From NCBI GenBank assembly GCA_028713955.1, contig JAQTNJ010000005.1, positions 1,389 to 43,344 on the forward strand: a DNA stretch of 41,956 nt, given 5' to 3'. The stretch comes from Syntrophorhabdaceae bacterium. GTDB taxonomy: Bacteria > Desulfobacterota > Syntrophorhabdia > Syntrophorhabdales > Syntrophorhabdaceae. The notes beneath the pieces are model-generated. The model searched no databases. It saw nothing but the letters and a program-made list of their open reading frames with translations, and was not told where the DNA came from. A program made the position numbers and the translations under genes. Shown one piece after another: positions 11,877 to 23,410 of this stretch (positions are counted from its first letter, which is position 1; the number at the start of each line of letters is the position of its first letter).

Positions 11877-12305
11877 GTGGAAGACATAGCGCAGATATAT
11901 AAAGCCCTTTCAGAACCTATGAGACTGCGGATAATGATGCTCCTCATGAAGGGAGAGTTGTGTGTATGCGACTTCATGGAGGTACTGGAAGAGCCGCAGT
12001 CCAAAGTATCGCGGCACCTTGCGTATTTAAAGCACTCCGGGCTCATACAGGGAAAAAGGGTTGGAACGTGGATGCATTATTTTCTGAGAGACCATCTTGA
12101 TGGACTAATCGCAGCACATATAAAACTCCTGAAAAAAGAGCTCCCCGGCCTCAATTGGGTAAAGGCGGATGCCACGAAGCTGATCGAGGTTCAAAAAAAG
12201 AAACTTTGCGATAATGCCGCCGGGAATGGACCGGCCGCAAGGAGAAAGGCGGTTGCAGGAAAAGGACGAATAGTCCTGCAAGGAAAGAAAAGAACGAATC
12301 CATAG
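11877..12305 (+). CDS. arsR: ArsR-family regulator of the arsenite operon
   Basis: A 142-residue winged-helix repressor starting at GTG 11877 without a clear ribosome-binding site; the mRNA leader would be short. Its core IYKALSEPMRLRIMMLLMKGELCVCDFMEVLEEPQSKVSRHLAYLKHSGLI (split here for reading) has the ELCVCD metal-binding box. A Lys-rich C-terminal extension of about 50 residues is unusual for the family. It is 16 bp upstream of acr3 and probably autoregulates through the dyad at 11841-11860. Confidence 0.92.
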   Translation: MEDIAQIYKALSEPMRLRIMMLLMKGELCVCDFMEVLEEPQSKVSRHLAYLKHSGLIQGKRVGTWMHYFLRDHLDGLIAAHIKLLKKELPGLNWVKADATKLIEVQKKKLCDNAAGNGPAARRKAVAGKGRIVLQGKKRTNP

Positions 12306-12321
12306 AAAGGAGCACAAATAG

Positions 12322-13416
12322 ATGGCCACAGAACAGCTCAGCAAGAAACTTTCTTTTCTGGACAGATTTTTAACGCTCTGGATCTTCCTCGCCATGTTCA
12401 TCGGCGTGGGCTGGGGGTATGCCTCTCCGGGGGTGGTTGACTTCTGGAACCGGTTCCAGTCGGGGACTACTAATATCCCCATTGCCATCGGCCTCATCCT
12501 CATGATGTATCCGCCGCTTGCAAAGGTGCGGTATGAGGAACTGGGCGAGGTCTTTAAAAACTACAGGGTGTTGACACTATCCTTGGTACAGAACTGGGTG
12601 GTGGGGCCTATCCTGATGTTTGTCCTTGCCATCATCTTTTTGAGAGGTTATCCGGAATACATGGTTGGTCTTATTATGATCGGTCTCGCCCGGTGTATCG
12701 CCATGGTTATTGTCTGGAATGACCTCGCAAAAGGGGATACGGAATACTGTGCCGGACTCGTTGCCTTCAACTCCATATTCCAGGTCCTTTTCTTCTCTGT
12801 CTATGCCTACATCTTCATCACCGTCCTGCCGCCCATGCTCGGACTCAAAGGGGTAGTGGTGGATATTACGATCGGTCAGATTGCCGAGAGCGTCTTCATC
12901 TATCTCGGCATCCCTTTTATTGCGGGGGTGATCACCCGCTTTACCCTGATCAAGATAAAGGACAAGACGTGGTACCACGAGAGGTTCATCCCGAAGATAA
13001 GCCCCATTACGCTCATCGCCCTTCTCTTCACCATCCTTGTCATGTTCTCCCTGAAGGGTGAATACATAGTGAAGATCCCTCTCGACGTAGTGCGCATCGC
13101 CATACCGCTTTTGATCTATTTCATTGTCATGTTTCTCGTTTCTTTTTATATGAGCGCAAAGGCGAAGGCGCATTACGGACAGGCAGCCACGCTTTCCTTT
13201 ACCGCGGCATCGAACAACTTTGAACTTGCCATCGCCGTTGCGGTCGCGGTGTTCGGCATCAACTCCGGGCAGGCATTTGCCGCCGTTATAGGGCCGCTCG
13301 TTGAGGTGCCGGTGTTGATCAACCTTGTCCACCTCTCCTTATGGATAAAGAGAAAATATTTTCCATATGCCGTTGAGACGCCGCTGGGAGTCTGCTATTA
13401 TAGTTGCAGGAAATAA
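12322..13416 (+). CDS. acr3: Arsenite efflux transporter Acr3
   Basis: A 364-residue, ten-TM bile/arsenite/riboflavin-transporter-family protein that exports As(III). The ATG follows AAAGGAG. Family markers include the TM4 motif [19 protein letters not shown] with the essential cysteine at 125, the N-terminal VGWGYASPG, and the TM9-10 segment [21 protein letters not shown]. The latter two segments are standard for prokaryotic Acr3. The gene lies between arsR and arsC. Confidence 0.96.
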
Positions 13417-13433
13417 ATACAGGGAGGAGTACA

Positions 13434-13868
13434 ATGGATAAAAAAAGGGTCTTGTTCGTCTGTGTCCATAACAGCGCACGAAGCCAGATGGCTGAAGCAT
13501 TTCTCAATGCCCTCGCAGGTGACAGATTCGAGGCACACAGCGCCGGCCTCGAACCCGGCGTCCTCAACCCTCTCGCCGTTGAGGTCATGAAAGAGATAGG
13601 CATCGAGATCTCGCAAAACAAGACAAAGAGCGCCTTTGACCTTTTCAAGAAAGGCGAGCTGTTTTCCTATGTGGTGACCGTCTGCGATGCCGCGAGCGCC
13701 GAGATGTGCCCGATCTTCCCGGGGCTTGTCACAAAGACAATCCACTGGAGCTTTGAAGACCCTTCTGCCTTTACCGGTACCCATGAGGAACGGCTTGAGA
13801 AGACGAGAAAGGTGAGGGACGCAATAAAGCGTAAAATCGAGGAATGGCTGGATGGAATTGTACGATAA
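13434..13868 (+). CDS. arsC: Arsenate reductase ArsC, low-molecular-weight phosphatase type
   Basis: A 144-residue cytosolic enzyme reducing As(V) to As(III) for Acr3. The start at 13434 is supported by GGGAGGAG. The P-loop nucleophile is in [16 protein letters not shown] (Cys10). The resolving cysteines are Cys84 and Cys92 in [11 protein letters not shown], the layout of thioredoxin-coupled enzymes. A thioredoxin lies two genes downstream, but that protein has an export signal and so is probably not the cytosolic partner. Confidence 0.95.
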
Positions 13869-13905
13869 GCAAATATTTACGAGAGAATATATTAGAGGAG
13901 CCTTC

Positions 13906-14025
13906 ATGAAACGATATATTATGATCGCGTTGATTATCCTTTCAGGGGTCATTCAATACTCCTGTGCAACCACCTGTGAGATAAGGTCGCCGGCAAGTGA
14001 TTCGCAAGGTCAGGTTGGCAAATAA
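13906..14025 (+). CDS. Very small predicted lipoprotein (39 aa)
   Basis: The ATG follows AGAGGAG and encodes a hydrophobic leader of about 19 residues ending QYSC, then ATTCEIRS and a short polar tail; stop at 14023-14025. The cysteine after the leader could be lipidated, though tyrosine at -2 is not ideal for a lipobox. It fills the gap between arsC and the thioredoxin gene. Small lipoproteins of this shape occur in thiol-redox operons, but no function can be given. Confidence 0.55.
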   Translation: MKRYIMIALIILSGVIQYSCATTCEIRSPASDSQGQVGK

Positions 14026-14055
14026 ATAAGGCCGATATTATCCCTGGAGGAATAT

Positions 14056-14487
14056 ATGAGCAAACGTCTCCATAAAAATATCCTACCCGCTGCACTTATC
14101 CTTATCTGTATATTGTTCGTTTCCTTCACAACCGTGTACGGACAGGCTAAAACTGTTAAACCCCCGTCTCCGGCAACATCACTGCCCCTTCTCATTGATA
14201 TTGGCGCAAAGCAATGCATCCCCTGCAAGATGATGGCGCCTATCCTGGAAGAGCTCAAACGGGAATACGCCGGAGTATTGAATGTACAGTTTATCGATGT
14301 GTGGGAAAATCCCAATGCCGGTCAGAAATACCGGATACGGGCCATCCCTACCCAGATATTCTACGATGCCTCCGGCAGGGAGCTTTCCCGTCATATGGGG
14401 TTTATGTCGAAGGAACAGATCCTGAACGCCTTTAAAGATCTCGGGATCGATCTGAAACCAATCTCTCCTAAAAAGAAAACAGGATGA
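14056..14487 (+). CDS. Periplasmic thioredoxin-family protein
   Basis: A 143-residue protein with an N-terminal signal or anchor (residues 1-30), then a thioredoxin fold with active site KQCIPCKMM (Cys54, Cys57), VQFIDVWENP and cis-proline AIPTQIFYD. The start follows GGAGG. It is seven bases from a CcdA-type transporter, which is the expected source of electrons for a periplasmic reductant. The pair likely keeps a periplasmic or membrane thiol reduced beside the arsenic exporters (inference). Confidence 0.88.
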   Translation: MSKRLHKNILPAALILICILFVSFTTVYGQAKTVKPPSPATSLPLLIDIGAKQCIPCKMMAPILEELKREYAGVLNVQFIDVWENPNAGQKYRIRAIPTQIFYDASGRELSRHMGFMSKEQILNAFKDLGIDLKPISPKKKTG

Positions 14488-14494
14488 ACCGCTG

Positions 14495-15196
14495 ATGCTG
14501 GAGAAGTTCTTCATAGTTCTCACGCGGGCGGTCGAGGGGAGCCCGGCGATCGCTTTGGGTGCATCGTTCATCTGGGGTATCTTAAGTCTTATCTTAAGTC
14601 CCTGCCATCTCTCAAGCATACCTCTCATCGTGGGATTTATCGATGAACAAGGCCGTATATCGACACGAAGGGCCTTTTGTATTACCAGCACTTTCTCCTG
14701 CGGGCTTTTCGTGAGTATCGCAGCCATTGGTCTTTTTACGGCCCTTGCAGGCCGCATGATGGGCGATGTGGGCAGGTATGGCAATTATTTCGTTGCAGGC
14801 GTCTTTTTTCTTATGGGGCTCCACCTCTTCGACGTTATCCCAATGCCGTGGTCGGGTCCGGGACAGATCGGAATCAAGCGTAAAGGTATTATGGCTGCCC
14901 TTATACTCGGGCTCATATTCGGCATTGCGCTCGGCCCCTGCACATTTGCTTACATGGCCCCCATGTTGAGCATCACCTTTCAGCTTGCATCAACGCAGCT
15001 ATGGTATGGCATCATGCTCCTTCTGGCCTATGCCGTAGGCCACTGCTCGATCATCGTTCTGGCAGGCACCTTTACAGAACTCGTTCAGCAGTATCTAAAC
15101 TGGAACGAAAAATCCAAGGGGTCCCTGATAATAAAGAAGGCATGTGGCACCCTGGTGATTCTGGGGGGCTTTTATTTGATCTACACAACGATATAA
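14495..15196 (+). CDS. CcdA/DsbD-type transmembrane thiol-electron transporter
   Basis: A 233-residue protein with six predicted TM segments. The two membrane cysteines that relay electrons are in LSPCHLSSIPLIVG (Cys37) and ALGPCTFAYMAPM (about Cys149), each followed by the family helix-breaking pattern. It would move reducing power from cytosolic thioredoxin to the periplasmic thioredoxin encoded just upstream. No strong Shine-Dalgarno is seen; AGGA lies ten bases upstream, and translation may be coupled to the upstream gene. Confidence 0.9.
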   Translation: MLEKFFIVLTRAVEGSPAIALGASFIWGILSLILSPCHLSSIPLIVGFIDEQGRISTRRAFCITSTFSCGLFVSIAAIGLFTALAGRMMGDVGRYGNYFVAGVFFLMGLHLFDVIPMPWSGPGQIGIKRKGIMAALILGLIFGIALGPCTFAYMAPMLSITFQLASTQLWYGIMLLLAYAVGHCSIIVLAGTFTELVQQYLNWNEKSKGSLIIKKACGTLVILGGFYLIYTTI

Positions 15197-15207
15197 AAAA
15201 TATCCTC

Positions 15208-15256
15208 TTGACAACTTTTCAAACCCGACCTATAATATATCAAAATAAGTTGATAT
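15208..15256 (+). promoter_or_regulatory. Promoter and ArsR operator of permease-arsR
   Basis: TTGACA (15208-15213) and TATAAT (15231-15236) are 17 bp apart, both perfect. A perfect dyad ATATCAA-N6-TTGATAT (15237-15256) abuts the -10. It matches the known ArsR consensus ATCAA-N6-TTGAT. Promoter, dyad and leader align with 6314-6360, showing common descent. Confidence 0.85.
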
Positions 15257-15271
15257 GTTAGGATGTGGACG

Positions 15272-16219
15272 ATGCTCAATGACTTTTCAAAATATGTTGT
15301 GTATGACCTTTTCAAACTCTCTGAAGGCGCGCAGCTCTCGGGTGCCTTAGAGTTCTTTATATATGATACTATTAAGATATTCATGCTCCTTGCTGTTATC
15401 ATATTCGCCATATCCTTTGTCCGGAGTTTCTTCCCTCCGGAGAAGACGAGAAAAATACTATCGCATAAAAAAGAATTTATAGGTAATATACTGGCCGCCC
15501 TCCTCGGGGTCGCAACCCCCTTTTGTTCATGCTCTGCTGTTCCATTATTTATCGGCTTTATCGAGGGAGGTGTTCCGTTAGGTGTCACTTTTTCCTTTCT
15601 CATCTCATCCCCAATGGTAAACGAGGTGGCAGTTGTACTCCTCTGGGGCCTCTTCGGCTGGAAGATAACGGCTATTTATATCGGGACCGGCCTTTCCGTT
15701 GCAATGCTGGGAGGATACATCATAGGGAAGCTGAAGCTTGAAAACTGGGTGGAAGAGTATGTCTATAAGATGAAAATGGGAGAGAGCCAGTCTGTTCTGA
15801 CCCAAACATTCAAGGAAAGGGTTCAGTATGCGCAGTGGAACACAAAGGACATCGTGGGCAAGATCTGGTTCTTTGTACTCATCGCCATCGGCATCGGCGG
15901 TTTTATACATGGCTATGTACCTGAGGATTTTCTGACGAAGTTCGCGGGAAACGGGTTTTTTGCAGTACCCATTGCCGTGTTGGTGGGTGTGCCGCTCTAT
16001 TCCAATGCGGCCGGGGTAATACCCATCGTCTATGCCCTCATGAGCAAGGGGTTGTCCCTGGGCACGGTACTTGCTTTCATGATGGCGGTAACCGCCCTTT
16101 CCCTGCCCGAAATGATCATCTTGCGAAAGGTTCTGAAAGTGAAGCTACTCACTATCTTTGTAGGAATAATGACCGTTACGATCATGGGAGTAGGATATCT
16201 CTTTAATGCGATTATGTAA
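15272..16219 (+). CDS. PF03773-type permease (ArsP-like, 315 aa)
   Basis: A membrane protein of two permease halves, about eight TM segments. The start at 15272 is favoured by TTAGGA eight bases upstream and by alignment to the remnant at 6376; an in-frame ATG at 15263 would add three residues. GVATPFCSCSAVPLFIGF holds the CSC motif (Cys85/Cys87), followed by FSFLISSPMVNEVAV. The second half has GVPLYSNAAGVIPIVYALMSKG. Family members export arsenicals or unknown metal(loid) species. It has its own ArsR-type promoter and its arsR immediately downstream. Confidence 0.9.
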   Translation: MLNDFSKYVVYDLFKLSEGAQLSGALEFFIYDTIKIFMLLAVIIFAISFVRSFFPPEKTRKILSHKKEFIGNILAALLGVATPFCSCSAVPLFIGFIEGGVPLGVTFSFLISSPMVNEVAVVLLWGLFGWKITAIYIGTGLSVAMLGGYIIGKLKLENWVEEYVYKMKMGESQSVLTQTFKERVQYAQWNTKDIVGKIWFFVLIAIGIGGFIHGYVPEDFLTKFAGNGFFAVPIAVLVGVPLYSNAAGVIPIVYALMSKGLSLGTVLAFMMAVTALSLPEMIILRKVLKVKLLTIFVGIMTVTIMGVGYLFNAIM

Positions 16220-16230
16220 GGAGGTTGCCG

Positions 16231-16617
16231 ATGAAGGATTTACTTGACATCCTTAAGGCCTTTTCCGATGAGACGAGACTCAGGATTATCAAGCTTCTCG
16301 AAGCAAGCGAACTTTGCGTCTGTGATATAGTTGCCGCCTTTGACACGGTACAGTCCAAAGTCTCCTTTCACCTGGGCGTACTTAAGAGAGCAGGGCTGGT
16401 AAAAGATAGGAAGCAGGGAAAGTGGATGCATTACCGTATTGACAACTCCGATCTGTTTAAACGGTTTCTCGTCTTTTCGGTGCTGGAAAGGATACCCGAG
16501 GAGACCATTAAACAGGATAAGGAAAGGCTTGAACAATTTCTTAAAACTAAAAAAGAACAGAAACCTATTGGTTCTATAAATAATAGAAATGCCTGTTGTA
16601 CGGGGCAACAGGATTGA
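16231..16617 (+). CDS. arsR: ArsR-family metalloregulator of the permease unit
   Basis: A 128-residue repressor starting at ATG 16231 behind AAGGAGG; an in-frame TTG at 16225 is closer to the ribosome site and less likely. It shares most of its sequence with the regulator at 7467, including FSDETRLRIIKLLE, ELCVCDIV and VQSKVSFHLGVLK. A C-terminal vicinal pair (NACCTG) is present here too. Presumed target is the perfect dyad at 15237-15256. Confidence 0.92.
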   Translation: MKDLLDILKAFSDETRLRIIKLLEASELCVCDIVAAFDTVQSKVSFHLGVLKRAGLVKDRKQGKWMHYRIDNSDLFKRFLVFSVLERIPEETIKQDKERLEQFLKTKKEQKPIGSINNRNACCTGQQD

Positions 16618-16664
16618 ATCGAGTTTCGAAACAGGATTTACTAAATCCCGAAGAGGAGGGAACA

Positions 16665-17267
16665 ATGGACGACAAAGATATTTTGATGGACGCACTGAGG
16701 TTTCATGGTCATAAGTGCTGGGCCAGCGTGGCAGGCGTGCGTGTCGGGCTGGCAGCGTTAAGAAAGCTCGGGGTGAGACGCTCCGGCGGTACACAGCTTT
16801 ACGGCATCGTGGAAATAGGCGAAGACCACGGCGGGATGTGTTTTGGTGACGGCGTGCAATATACCACCGGCTGCACCTTCGGCAAGGGGAATATCCGCAA
16901 GGAGCCCTACGGTAAACTCGCATTTACACTGATCGATAAAGCGACCAACCGCTCCGTGCGTGTGAGTTACAAACCCACACTGCAAAAACAGATTGCCGAA
17001 TCCGCTTTTATGAGGAAACGTGGCCAGGGTATTATGCCTGACGAAATTCCCATGGAAGAACAAACGGAACTGGTGAATCTCATCTGGGATGCGCCGGAAG
17101 CCGACGTTCTTACCATCGGTGAGGTGGCTCCGTATAAGGGCCAATGGTTTCCTGAAGTGATGGGTTTTACACCCTGCGCCGGTTGCGGCGAATTGACGGC
17201 CCATGCATATCTGCGCGTGGTTGGCGCCAAGCATGTCTGTATTCCCTGCTCGGGTTACGACCGGTAA
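16665..17267 (+). CDS. FmdE-domain protein with C-terminal Cys4 zinc-ribbon-like segment (1)
   Basis: A 200-residue protein; start at 16665 chosen for GAGGAGGG upstream. The N-terminal FmdE domain has [16 protein letters not shown] (Cys18) and [16 protein letters not shown], the metal-binding core of the formylmethanofuran dehydrogenase subunit E family. The C-terminus has CAGCGE about 20 residues before CIPC, a four-cysteine zinc or metal site. No other formylmethanofuran dehydrogenase genes are present, so it is a free-standing family member of unknown role. It follows arsR by 47 bp and is paired with a similar gene. Confidence 0.85.
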
Positions 17268-17296
17268 AGGTTAAAACGTTTTTTAAGAGGTGCGCA

Positions 17297-17923
17297 ATGA
17301 AAAACCTTAACGAATATTATGATGTGGCACTCAAGTTTCACGGGCATAAATGCCCGGCCATGCCCATGGGTCTTAGGGCCGGACTTGCAGCGCTCAAAGT
17401 CCTGGGCGTGGAACGTGCAAAAGACAAGGAACTCGTTGTAGAGTCCGAGACTGGCGAAGGTCATGCTGCAGGGTGTTTTCTCGATGGCGTAATGGTCGCT
17501 ACGGGAGCTACCTATGGCAAGGGAAATATAAAGAAACTCTTCTACAACAAAATGGCATTTATCTTGATAGACGTTGCAACCGGGAGGGCAGTGCGGGTTT
17601 CTCTCAAGCCAGAGTTCTTTGAGAAGGCCCTCCAGTCACCCTTTGTACGGAAACGGAAAGAAGGTGTCGCTCCGCAAGACATCCCCTCAGAAATAACAGA
17701 TCCGCAGGTTGAACGAATATTGGGTTTGCCTGAAGCAGAGTTTCTTACCATTAGCGATATTTTTCAGAGGGACTTGAAGAAGGGCGTCACAAGTTTCGAG
17801 GTGAAGCGTTGTGCGCGCTGTGGTGAAGCAACCTTCACAAACAAACTGGAGGAAACCAAGGATGGCAGACTCTTTTGCGTTCCCTGTATAGAAGGTGAAG
17901 AGAAAGAAACCGGCATGTGCTGA
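17297..17923 (+). CDS. FmdE-domain protein with C-terminal Cys4 segment (2)
   Basis: A 208-residue paralogue of the preceding protein; start at 17297 behind AAGAGGTG. It shows [20 protein letters not shown] (Cys19), [16 protein letters not shown] and a C-terminal CARCGE...CVPC site, ending TGMC. In the second motif the cysteine of the first copy (TTGCTFGKG) is replaced by alanine (ATGATYGKG), so metal ligation may differ between copies. The pair might form a heterodimer (inference). Confidence 0.85.
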
Positions 17924-20579: not shown

Positions 20580-21101
20580 ATGCTCCTGACCGGATATGTA
20601 AAACGGATTTTCAGACCTGTATGCAACCCGAGCTTCGAATCGGTCCACTGCATCGCCAAACTGAATGAAGACATTTCAGAGGTACTGCCCTATCTCAATG
20701 CCGTGCTCGGCGGCACGGAATACTTTAGTGACCCGCCGGAGGTGATGTTCAGCCACTATGGCAAGATTATAAAGGTCGGGTCGAGGGAGATCGCCATCAA
20801 CGCGCTGGAGGATGAGGACGAGGCAGAACGCATCCTTTCATGGTTGAAAGACCAGATCAACGAGGCATGGGAGAACAGGGGTACGATCACACCGAAATAC
20901 ACGGGGGGAAGGAAGCCCCAGATCATGGCAATACTTAAGCTCCTTCCAAGGTCAAACTGCAAACGATGCGGCAGGCCCACCTGCACGGTCTTCGCCGCCC
21001 AGATGGCAGAAGGCGGACTTGGGCCCGAACACTGCCCTGAACTTACAGAGGAAAATAGGCGGACGCTTACCAAATATCTGGCGGGATTCGATAGCTCATA
21101 G
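20580..21101 (+). CDS. Fe-S (four-cysteine) domain protein
   Basis: A 173-residue protein starting behind GGAG. The N-terminal 110 residues have no clear signature. The C-terminal region LLPRSNCKRCGRPTC followed by PEHCPEL is the Fe-S (PF04060-like) domain also found in corrinoid iron-sulfur protein and related redox proteins, with four cysteines for a [4Fe-4S] cluster. It follows the ferredoxin-type gene by 68 bp and could be its electron partner (inference). Confidence 0.7.
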   Translation: MLLTGYVKRIFRPVCNPSFESVHCIAKLNEDISEVLPYLNAVLGGTEYFSDPPEVMFSHYGKIIKVGSREIAINALEDEDEAERILSWLKDQINEAWENRGTITPKYTGGRKPQIMAILKLLPRSNCKRCGRPTCTVFAAQMAEGGLGPEHCPELTEENRRTLTKYLAGFDSS

Positions 21102-21175: not shown

Positions 21176-21421
21176 TCAGGTTCCCCCGAAAAGAGGGATG
21201 CCTCCTCGCAGGGATACATCACCTGCGAAGCCAATCGCTATCTTGTCTCCATCGACTATGACCGGGATCTCCATCTTTCCGCCGGAGCAGGCGAGCATTT
21301 CCTTGAATTTTTCCGGGTCTTCATCTACGTTGATGTAGGTGGCCCTATCCCCATAGGCTGCCCGAGCCTGGCTGCAGAAAGGTCAGCTGTCGGTTCCGTA
21401 AATAATAATTTTACCGGTCAT
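21176..21421 (-). CDS. Predicted selenoprotein, glutaredoxin-like UxxC (UXX-star type)
   Basis: The 81-residue frame opens with MTGKIIIYGTDS, meets TGA at 21385-21383 (codon 13), and continues PFCSQARAAY to a stop at 21178-21176. If TGA is selenocysteine the active site is U-P-F-C, in the exact position of the glutaredoxin CxxC after the first beta strand. The rest is glutaredoxin-like (TYINVDEDPEKFKEML, then MEIPVIVDGDK with cis-proline). AAGGAGG lies upstream and the ATG overlaps the previous stop (ATGA). I recall a UXX-star (seleno)protein group of this shape, which fits. A possible hairpin follows the TGA. No selenocysteine machinery is visible in the window, so recoding is inferred. Confidence 0.82.
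21358..21377 (-). promoter_or_regulatory. Candidate SECIS hairpin for the UxxC gene
   Basis: Starting six bases after the TGA, CTGC-AG-CC, loop AGGCTC, GG-GCAG gives a short stem with a two-base bulge and a loop with G in second position, about 13 bases from the TGA. It resembles bacterial SECIS geometry but is small; no folding energy was computed. Confidence 0.45.
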
Positions 21422-21765
21422 TGACTTGTTCCTCCTTCAGGGGCATTTGGCGGCATCTTGTTGTCTTTTTCTCTGTCGTGAACCTCAATAAACTCCTCAT
21501 ATTCCTTCAGCAGGACATTCCTGTAATCCCGCCGGATAACCTCTGAGGTGGGGACATAATTGCCCATAGCCTCCAATCCGGCAATGATCTCGTCTGCGGT
21601 TTCTCTATTTGCCTTTTTTCCAACAAAATAAAGCTCTGCCATTATCTCATGGAGATTGCTCACTGCGACCTGTGTTCCATCAATGAACCTGAGTGTCTTC
21701 CGACTAACTGTCGGGGCGTTGGGATCAACTCAGGTAACTCAGCCTATCACTTGAAATATAGACAT
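21418..21765 (-). CDS. Predicted selenoprotein with two in-frame TGA codons (UxxU)
   Basis: From ATG 21765, behind the ribosome-site-like AGGGGGTGG, the frame runs MSIFQVIG, TGA (21741-21739), V-T, TGA (21732-21730), then VDPNAPTVSRKTLRFIDG and on to a TGA stop at 21420-21418. With both TGAs as selenocysteine it has 115 residues and a U-V-T-U motif, the spacing of a CxxC redox pair. Conventional calling would start at GTG 21663 (81 residues). That start lacks a good ribosome site and would discard protein-like sequence between 21729 and 21664. It is 31 bp after the permease stop and overlaps the UxxC gene. Function unknown. Confidence 0.68.
21687..21735 (-). promoter_or_regulatory. Candidate SECIS structure for the two-TGA gene
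   Basis: A perfect 5-bp inner hairpin CCGAC-AGTTA-GTCGG (21714-21700) lies 15 bases after the second TGA. It is enclosed by a perfect 7-bp stem ACCTGAG/CTCAGGT (21735-21729 with 21693-21687) that contains that TGA. The loop has G in second position. Loop distance is about 20 bases from the second TGA and 29 from the first, within the range reported for bacterial SECIS elements. Confidence 0.5.
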
Positions 21766-21796: not shown

Positions 21797-22903
21797 TTAG
21801 TATACCAGCCAATCGACAAAATATCCAGCAACGACAGCAACTACAAAGACGTTGACAGCGAAGGCCAGGACCAGCTTCTTTTTAAACATGGAACCAAGTA
21901 TTATCAATTCAGGGATGGATGCCCCTGCTCCGCCTATGATGAGGGCAAGAACGGTTCCCAACCCCATGCCTTTTCCCACAAGGGCAGCGCTGATGGGGAT
22001 AATGGTTTCTGCGCGGATATACATGGGCACTCCGATAACTGCCGCGATTGGGATGGACCAGGGATTGCCCGGCCCCGCTACTTTTACCACAAGTTCCTGA
22101 GGAAAGAAGCCGTAAATAAACGCCCCTATCCCTGCACCGAGAAGCAGATACCAGAAAACACCCTTGAATGTATCCATGGCTGACGCCGATGCCCTTTTTA
22201 GCTTCTCTTTGAAGGGTATCGGTGCGGAGTCAGTGGTTTCATCAAAATCGACAGGGCAGCAAGAGGCCTGCGCAGCTTGAGGTGGGGGAGCTTTGGCTTC
22301 CGGCGTGCAACAGCTACCCGCCGTCTGAATAGTGTTTAAGGAAATAAGGGGTTGAACTGTTTCAGATGCACAACAACCTGCAGCAACAGACTGGACCTTC
22401 GCAGGAGCCGGTTGCGTTTGCGGTCCCTCTTTGCAGCAGGAGGCTGTCTGAAAACTCACCATCGGCTTGACCTGCTTTTCCATACCCATTTTCGAGAGGA
22501 GGGCTGCCATTGCCATGGATCCGAGAAATGTGACAACCATGTAGATCACAGTTACTTTGAGACCAAATAGCGAGACAAGCAGGGCTATAATGATCGGGTT
22601 GAGAACCGGTGAAGCAAAAAGGAATGACATTATAGGCCCGAAGGGAACACCCCCCTTGAGCAATCCGGCAGTTATGGGAACGGTTGAGCAGGAACAAAAA
22701 GGGGTTACAGCGCCGAGGCCGGAGCCCAGCAGATATTGCACCCACGTAAACCGGTTGGATAAAAAGCCCCTGATGCGGGACGGAGGGAGGTATTCCATCA
22801 ATATCCCCACAAGAAAGGAAACTGCAACAAAAATAAGAACAAGTTCACCGGCGATAACCAGAAAGAACTTACCGGCAGTAACAAAATTATTCAGCTCAAA
22901 CAT
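21797..22903 (-). CDS. PF03773-type permease with four Cys-Cys pairs in the central linker
   Basis: A 368-residue membrane protein. TM segments 1-4 cover residues 12-137 and include the CSC motif in GAVTPFCSCSTVPITAGLL (Cys70/Cys72). A roughly 85-residue hydrophilic linker follows with vicinal cysteines at 156-157, 177-178, 198-199 and 215-216; the first three are exactly 21 residues apart. The second permease half begins near 244 (FKGVFWYLLLGAGIGAFIYG) and ends GASIPELIILGSMF...DWLVY. The CC pairs would bind thiophilic metal(loid)s such as As(III), Hg(II) or Se compounds (inference). It follows a PadR regulator and precedes two predicted selenoproteins. Confidence 0.9.
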   Translation of the reverse strand: MFELNNFVTAGKFFLVIAGELVLIFVAVSFLVGILMEYLPPSRIRGFLSNRFTWVQYLLGSGLGAVTPFCSCSTVPITAGLLKGGVPFGPIMSFLFASPVLNPIIIALLVSLFGLKVTVIYMVVTFLGSMAMAALLSKMGMEKQVKPMVSFQTASCCKEGPQTQPAPAKVQSVAAGCCASETVQPLISLNTIQTAGSCCTPEAKAPPPQAAQASCCPVDFDETTDSAPIPFKEKLKRASASAMDTFKGVFWYLLLGAGIGAFIYGFFPQELVVKVAGPGNPWSIPIAAVIGVPMYIRAETIIPISAALVGKGMGLGTVLALIIGGAGASIPELIILGSMFKKKLVLAFAVNVFVVAVVAGYFVDWLVY

Positions 22904-22978: not shown

Positions 22979-23410
22979 TCATACGGCTTTGCCGTGGGAG
23001 GGGGCGACGCGAGCCCCGGCAGCGGAGAGACGCATCTTTATATCTTTTAAAAAGATAAGGTCATCACCTTCGATGGCCTTATAGATATAAGGGATAGTGG
23101 ATCGCCAGGCCTCAAGTGCCACCTCGTAAGCCGCTATGCCTGAGGGCGTAAGTGTGTAGACCTGTCTTTTCTGAGCGCCCTTGAGCTGCTTGTCTTCCCT
23201 GACCTCCGCATAACCGTTTTTCGTAAGTTCCTTGAGAATGGGGTAGATGGTCCCGAAGGTGGGAACGCAGCAGCCGCTCGTTATGGATTGCAGTTCCTTC
23301 AATATCCCGTATCCATGTTTGGGGCCTTTGGACAAGACCTTCAAAACAAGGACCTTTGTAAGACCTATGTTGATCAATGATTTCCAGTAATCCAAATTTG
23401 TGAGTTCCAT
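22979..23410 (-). CDS. PadR-family transcriptional regulator with a vicinal Cys pair
   Basis: A 143-residue winged-helix protein. Diagnostic sequence is VLKVLSKGPKHGYGILKEL and TFGTIYPILKELTKNGY, with the PadR C-terminal helix (LTPSGIAAYEVALEAW). SGCCVPTFG (Cys47-Cys48) lies between helices 2 and 3 of the DNA-binding domain, where most relatives have no cysteine pair. It could therefore be a thiol or metal(loid) sensor of the permease operon it heads. The permease starts 75 bp downstream. Confidence 0.88.
   Translation of the reverse strand: MELTNLDYWKSLINIGLTKVLVLKVLSKGPKHGYGILKELQSITSGCCVPTFGTIYPILKELTKNGYAEVREDKQLKGAQKRQVYTLTPSGIAAYEVALEAWRSTIPYIYKAIEGDDLIFLKDIKMRLSAAGARVAPSHGKAV

Follow-up and report, generated by a model that had tools for sequence, protein, structure and literature searches.

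A predicted double-selenocysteine protein family with a probable role in arsenic or metalloid efflux

Bacterial selenoproteins that take part in metalloid resistance are an already known kind, and several described systems lie close to the gene that we report here. ArsD (NF033727) is a small metallochaperone of ars operons, and its cysteine pairs bind As(III). Thioredoxins of the MTH895/ArsE type (TIGR00412) are found in ars neighbourhoods and carry a C-terminal CxxC thioredoxin, and in the Sao system selenoproteins are encoded beside the permease SaoE (NF040736). A 2026 review counts 119 selenoprotein families or subfamilies; its passages on these groups describe UXX-star proteins as thought to act with metals, and name as UxxU selenoproteins only Prx-like proteins, the metal-binding protein NF041115 and the FmdB family (PMC13188914). 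Bacterial families with two selenocysteine (Sec) residues are few.

We analysed 41,956 nucleotides of a Syntrophorhabdaceae genome (contig JAQTNJ010000005.1; this whole stretch is the window), which contain a gene for a predicted double-Sec protein. Like ArsD, the protein is small and encoded in an ars-type operon, and its cysteine relatives carry CC; the ArsD profile did not match it in Pfam and NCBIfam scans. ArsD occurs separately from the family and is fused to ACR3 at one locus (L102:2332-3723), where an ArsD-like domain (45.5 bits, cut-off 90) on the ACR3 N terminus lies directly upstream of a UxxxU gene. The MTH895/ArsE proteins share with the double-Sec protein an unnamed N-terminal domain and the ars neighbourhood, but they have the thioredoxin and no Sec arm, which is the reverse of the window protein. 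A UXX-star family 1 protein (NF041114) is encoded by the adjacent gene, likewise with a UGA-encoded Sec, but it has a glutaredoxin fold and is unrelated in sequence to the double-Sec protein, which matched none of the UXX-star profiles NF041114, NF041211 and NF047338 in NCBIfam. The Prx-like, NF041115 and FmdB proteins share UxxU with the window protein but, as the review's passages present them, differ in their domains, and NCBIfam gave no match to them. The neighbouring permease is related to SaoE (106.7 bits, cut-off 325), and none of SaoC, SaoB, SaoX and SaoT matches the double-Sec protein. The family appears to be absent from the review's families in the passages covering UxxU (PMC13188914). 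The June 2026 NCBIfam library, including the families of Haft and co-workers, holds no model for it, and a literature search on ArsE/F/G gave no relevant description; within these libraries and the review, the family thus appears to be undescribed.

The gene starts at an ATG (21765-21763) preceded by AGGGGG, and past codon 12 its frame is open as far as the terminal TGA at 21420-21418 (Table 1). The first-pass annotation had given this frame, its start, both internal TGA positions and the stop at 21418, and these coordinates proved exact. With TGA read as U, the protein begins MSIFQVIG-U-VT-U-VDPNAPTVSRKTLRF..., and the full translation is MSIFQVIGUVTUVDPNAPTVSRKTLRFIDGTQVAVSNLHEIMAELYFVGKKANRETADEIIAGLEAMGNYVPTSEVIRRDYRNVLLKEYEEFIEVHDREKDNKMPPNAPEGGTSQ. 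GTG 21663, the conventional start, corresponds to codon 35 of this frame and falls within a predicted β-strand.

Table 1. Features of the double-Sec locus and the nearby ars cluster, in window positions
Feature	Position	Strand	Details
ars cluster	11877..16617	+	ArsR 11877, ACR3 12322, ArsC-like 13404, thioredoxin 14056, DsbD-like 14495, SaoE/SO_0444-like permease 15263, ArsR 16225
ACR3 arsenite efflux pump	12322..13416	+	TIGR00832 456.7 bits; genome's only copy
UXX-star family 1 glutaredoxin-like selenoprotein gene	21176..21421	-	NF041114 79.7 bits, cut-off 72
Predicted double-selenocysteine protein gene	21418..21765	-	115 aa + TGA stop; TGA-as-U reading, relatives, dN/dS
Predicted β-hairpin, codons 22-35, start of core domain	21661..21702	-	AF2 strands 22-26, 32-36
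Candidate SECIS apical stem-loop CCGAC-AGTTA-GTCGG	21700..21714	-	Spacing and fold, codon bias, dS, covariation
Sec codon 2 (codon 12, UGA)	21730..21732	-	TGA invariant, 25/25 close members
Sec codon 1 (codon 9, UGA)	21739..21741	-	TGA invariant, 25/25 close members
ArsP_1 / SO_0444-SaoE-like permease	21797..22903	-	31 nt upstream of Sec gene; PF03773 195.7 bits
PadR-type regulator, likely first operon gene	22979..23410	-	PF03551 65.2 bits

The minus-strand order is PadR regulator, ArsP_1 permease, double-Sec gene and UXX-star selenoprotein gene, and the PF03773 and NF041114 matches bear out the earlier description of a gene between a metal(loid)-type permease and another UGA gene. The ArsP_1 permease scores under the NCBIfam equivalog cut-offs. 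The UXX-star gene, the only copy in the genome, has its Sec TGA at 21385-21383 with a hairpin after it, and its ATG overlaps the double-Sec stop as ATGA; a UXX-star gene also lies directly after, or close to, the double-Sec gene at several other loci. The ars cluster is 5-10 kb from the double-Sec gene, with ACR3 8 kb off, and its ArsC, thioredoxin and permease are under the equivalog cut-offs. A search of the organism's own 3.45 Mb genome found a single copy each of ACR3 and the double-Sec gene, both in the window, where there is also a CDF efflux gene. Two tandem, similar-looking ORFs (16596-17267 and 17183-17923) have an FHGHKC motif and gave no NCBIfam match. A small protein encoded at 20580-21101 is similar in its C-terminal part to the Cys-rich 4Fe-4S domain of RnfB and the acetyl-CoA synthase gamma subunit, and relatives of it recur near the double-Sec family (cluster c11).

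Pfam and NCBIfam scans of the double-Sec protein and its cysteine forms returned no family model, and for the double-Sec protein NCBIfam gave nothing at E<=10 except an unrelated match at E=0.14. A match of one cysteine form to XdhC_CoxI (23.4 bits, below the cut-off of 24.3) was set aside. An AlphaFold2 (AF2) model built from 20 sequences (mean pLDDT 75) has a β-hairpin and three helices at residues 22-102, with pLDDT 77-93 over most of the length of this core domain, whereas the first 20 residues, which include both Sec positions, have no confident structure (pLDDT <50 in the N-terminal arm). The model thus places the Sec pair in a predicted arm, short and flexible, ahead of a conserved domain of a β-hairpin and three helices, and starting at GTG 21663 would remove the first strand of the predicted hairpin. 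A PDB sequence search gave chance matches alone, Foldseek found none at E<=0.001, a fold search that cannot exclude a fold, and VIA-align scores, for small helical domains, did not exceed Z 5.7, which is uninformative. A thioredoxin fold was neither predicted by AF2 nor matched in Pfam, or in the PDB at E<=0.001.

The spacing of the two Sec residues varies within the family: two residues separate them in GUVTU, GUVGU and GUVDU, three in GUKDGU, and four in GUKGGEU and GUVGGCU. One family member has LxxU (L118:5278, minus strand); its first Sec position is Leu (TTA) and the second TGA alone is retained, which is either a true loss or a sequencing error. In the cysteine relatives, CC or CPC stands at the end of the domain where the Sec forms have their pair, and these do not match the Sec positions column for column because the length of the arm varies. 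The first-pass annotation had equated UxxU with a CxxC redox motif. The two-residue spacing holds for the window protein, but the equation does not extend to a family that has spacings of 2, 3 and 4, no thioredoxin-like prediction and CC/CPC relatives; since the spacing is variable (UxxU, UxxxU, UxxxxU), the Sec pair is not simply a CxxC redox site.

In other genomes the core domain is also fused to an MTH895/ArsE-type thioredoxin. Many further core-domain matches that we examined were proteins of ~165-200 aa with the core domain first and the thioredoxin after it, and Pfam has no model for the N-terminal part of these fusions. Many Desulfobacterota genomes have ars loci in which the unnamed domain stands N-terminal to an ArsE-type thioredoxin (L112:6724-7278, L126:1533-2033, L128:5274-5768 and similar). 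In a tree of 68 sequences, whose details are unsure given its few columns and midpoint root only, the Sec forms all fall in one clade (97/87) beside the CC/CPC cysteine forms, and the thioredoxin fusions lie across a strongly supported branch (100/99).

The narrow family profile matched 36 of 395 genomes across the phylum and 42 of 148 relatives, some Cys-only or truncated forms included; the ~9% of phylum-sample genomes that match are mostly Sec forms. With a wider search, 129 of the 395 genomes, about a third, proved to carry the core domain, and a plasmid search found nothing. The loci are strongly associated with arsenic genes: in 35 of 51 with the Sec form, ars-type genes lie no more than 5.5 kb away (ACR3 in 22, ArsR in 17, ArsP_1/SO_0444 in 14, ArsC in 9 and ArsM in 6), and 24 have such a gene on the same strand within 1.5 kb. 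The remaining 16 have none of these ars genes, and many of them are at contig ends. Thioredoxin and DsbD-like genes recur near family loci, and seven Sec-form loci contain a CDF efflux gene. The core-thioredoxin fusions are likewise often in ArsR-permease-ACR3 loci. Counts for gene cluster c0 were left out because fusions mix the core domain with stand-alone thioredoxins there. ArsR is a broad regulator family, and the permeases, which fall short of the equivalog cut-offs in NCBIfam, could transport other metals (the annotation of SO_0444 is Cu/Zn).

The best explanation, and in our judgement a probable one, is that a protein made with two Sec residues through one SECIS serves as an accessory of arsenic or metalloid efflux, with putative As(III)-binding selenolates. 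Its neighbourhood suggests that it works in an efflux module with the ArsP_1 permease and the UXX-star selenoredoxin, and that arsenic or another metalloid would be its substrate. The two UGAs would be decoded through one hairpin just downstream, and the core domain would dock on a partner, either a pump or a redox protein. The two selenolates of the arm would bind As(III), or else an arsenical in methylated or thiolated form, and pass it to the pump, much as the vicinal cysteine pairs of ArsD do, and the UXX-star protein or ArsE-type thioredoxins could keep the Sec pair reduced. Translation of the UXX-star protein may in addition be gated by the supply of selenium, as both UGAs lie upstream of its start.

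The main rival is that the Sec pair is a redox centre, a diselenide or selenol relay from thioredoxins to ArsC, the UXX-star protein or oxidised arsenicals. The fusion of the core domain to CxxC thioredoxins elsewhere and the thioredoxin and DsbD-like genes nearby are consistent with such a relay, as is the review's description, in the passages concerned, of known selenoproteins as mostly oxidoreductases (PMC13188914). However, the spacing drifts from 2 to 4 residues, a thioredoxin fold is neither predicted nor matched, and the L118 member has just one Sec, and we consider the relay unlikely. A fixed redox site would account less well than arsenical binding for a spacing that varies, for the CC/CPC forms and for the pump context.

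Slightly less likely again is that the double-Sec protein serves another metal or selenium (Hg, Cu, Zn, Cd or organometals) and has arsenic genes nearby since resistance genes cluster. The permease of the SO_0444 Cu/Zn or SaoE type and the CDF efflux genes, in the window and in seven loci, point in this direction, and UXX-star proteins have been suggested as metal ligands in the review's passages on them (PMC13188914); against it, ACR3, ArsC and ArsM recur beside the family, and the thioredoxin-fused relatives sit in ars loci as well. Under the preferred arsenical-binding reading, the locus would add an unnamed domain and a putative selenium-based accessory to anaerobic arsenic resistance. We see even chances for a broader proposal, in which an undescribed family has UGAs at drifting spacing (2, 3 or 4) that share a SECIS, an arsenic-binding arm with paired selenolates evolutionarily replaces a thioredoxin on the same docking module, and the ATGA overlap couples expression of the next selenoprotein.

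Both in-frame TGAs almost certainly encode selenocysteine, a reading that sequence comparison supports well. A tblastn search of contigs from 84,980 species genomes found TGA at both places in all 19 relatives from genome contigs, and nearly all more distant Sec-form members also keep both. Among 25 close members, dN/dS was 0.30 for codons 2-8, 0.067 for codons 9-12 and 0.15 for codons 13-17; selection at the protein level thus spans the TGAs, in line with the earlier proposal that the stretch from the TGAs to GTG 21663 is protein. That GTG is absent from most relatives and the sequence upstream of it is conserved, contrary to what would be expected if all homologues started there. Where the core domain begins, the 25 aligned members have no in-frame start codon in common, and two of them have no in-frame start at all from UGA2 to codon 45; codon 42 is ATG in most, and starting there would cost the predicted β-hairpin.

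The genome encodes the Sec machinery, with selA (586.1 bits), selB (366.6 bits) and selD (369.8 bits) over their cut-offs and a tRNA-Sec over the gathering score (68.7). The genome's selD (G000:C203:2-907, L124) has one in-frame TGA and is thus probably a selenoprotein too. In this Sec-rich phylum co-occurrence with selB does not discriminate (46/51 with the double-Sec family versus 33/40 without). The conserved TGA pairs, the SECIS and the machinery, along with relatives that bear Cys in the arm though not in the same columns, support the suggestion that standard gene calling had overlooked two Sec codons, and standard annotation would miss or truncate the Sec forms.

Standard gene callers read the locus as if the TGAs were true stops, so that an 8-residue leader peptide would control a downstream ORF from GTG 21663 or a later codon. 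We regard this as very improbable, since protein conservation runs through and beyond both TGAs, most relatives lack the GTG, two of 25 have no usable start from UGA2 to codon 45, and a SECIS signature is present. That this organism reads UGA as Trp or some other residue is hardly credible: nothing was found in its favour, the full Sec machinery is present, and TGA is the ordinary stop of 6 of 15 window genes.

A bacterial SECIS is described in the review's passages as having its loop 16-37 nt after the UGA, with a G as the first or second base of the loop (PMC13188914). In the window gene the loop begins 29 nt past Sec codon 1 and 20 nt past Sec codon 2, and in all examined Sec members it begins 26-32 nt after UGA1 and 17-24 nt after UGA2, with G as the second loop base. 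One hairpin therefore fits the rule for both UGAs, and a single SECIS apparently serves both; as their spacing evolves, decoding of consecutive UGAs could be tested in a natural series. An Rfam scan of the window gave no match, as expected because bacterial SECIS elements vary.

Constraint at the RNA level is visible separately from that on the protein. For Val20, in the loop, 55 of 57 sequences use GTT, whereas elsewhere in these genes GTT makes up 101 of 301 Val codons (p=1.6e-20); within the hairpin, Ser is always AGY, and the Arg/Trp codon is CGG or TGG in 56 of 57. dS falls to 0.107 in codons 18-22, about six-fold lower than the 0.62-0.74 of codons 13-17, codons 23-34 and beyond. The stem also covaries, with 16 double-change cells versus 6.1+-1.9 after shuffling (0/500) and 85% of cells paired versus at most 46% with slid partners; relatedness of the sequences inflates these counts, and the slid controls carry the same relatedness. 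Compensatory changes replace G-C by A-U at one pair and A-U by G-C at the pair after it, and where CGG becomes TGG in one stem arm (Arg to Trp), the other arm shows a silent CCG to CCA change.
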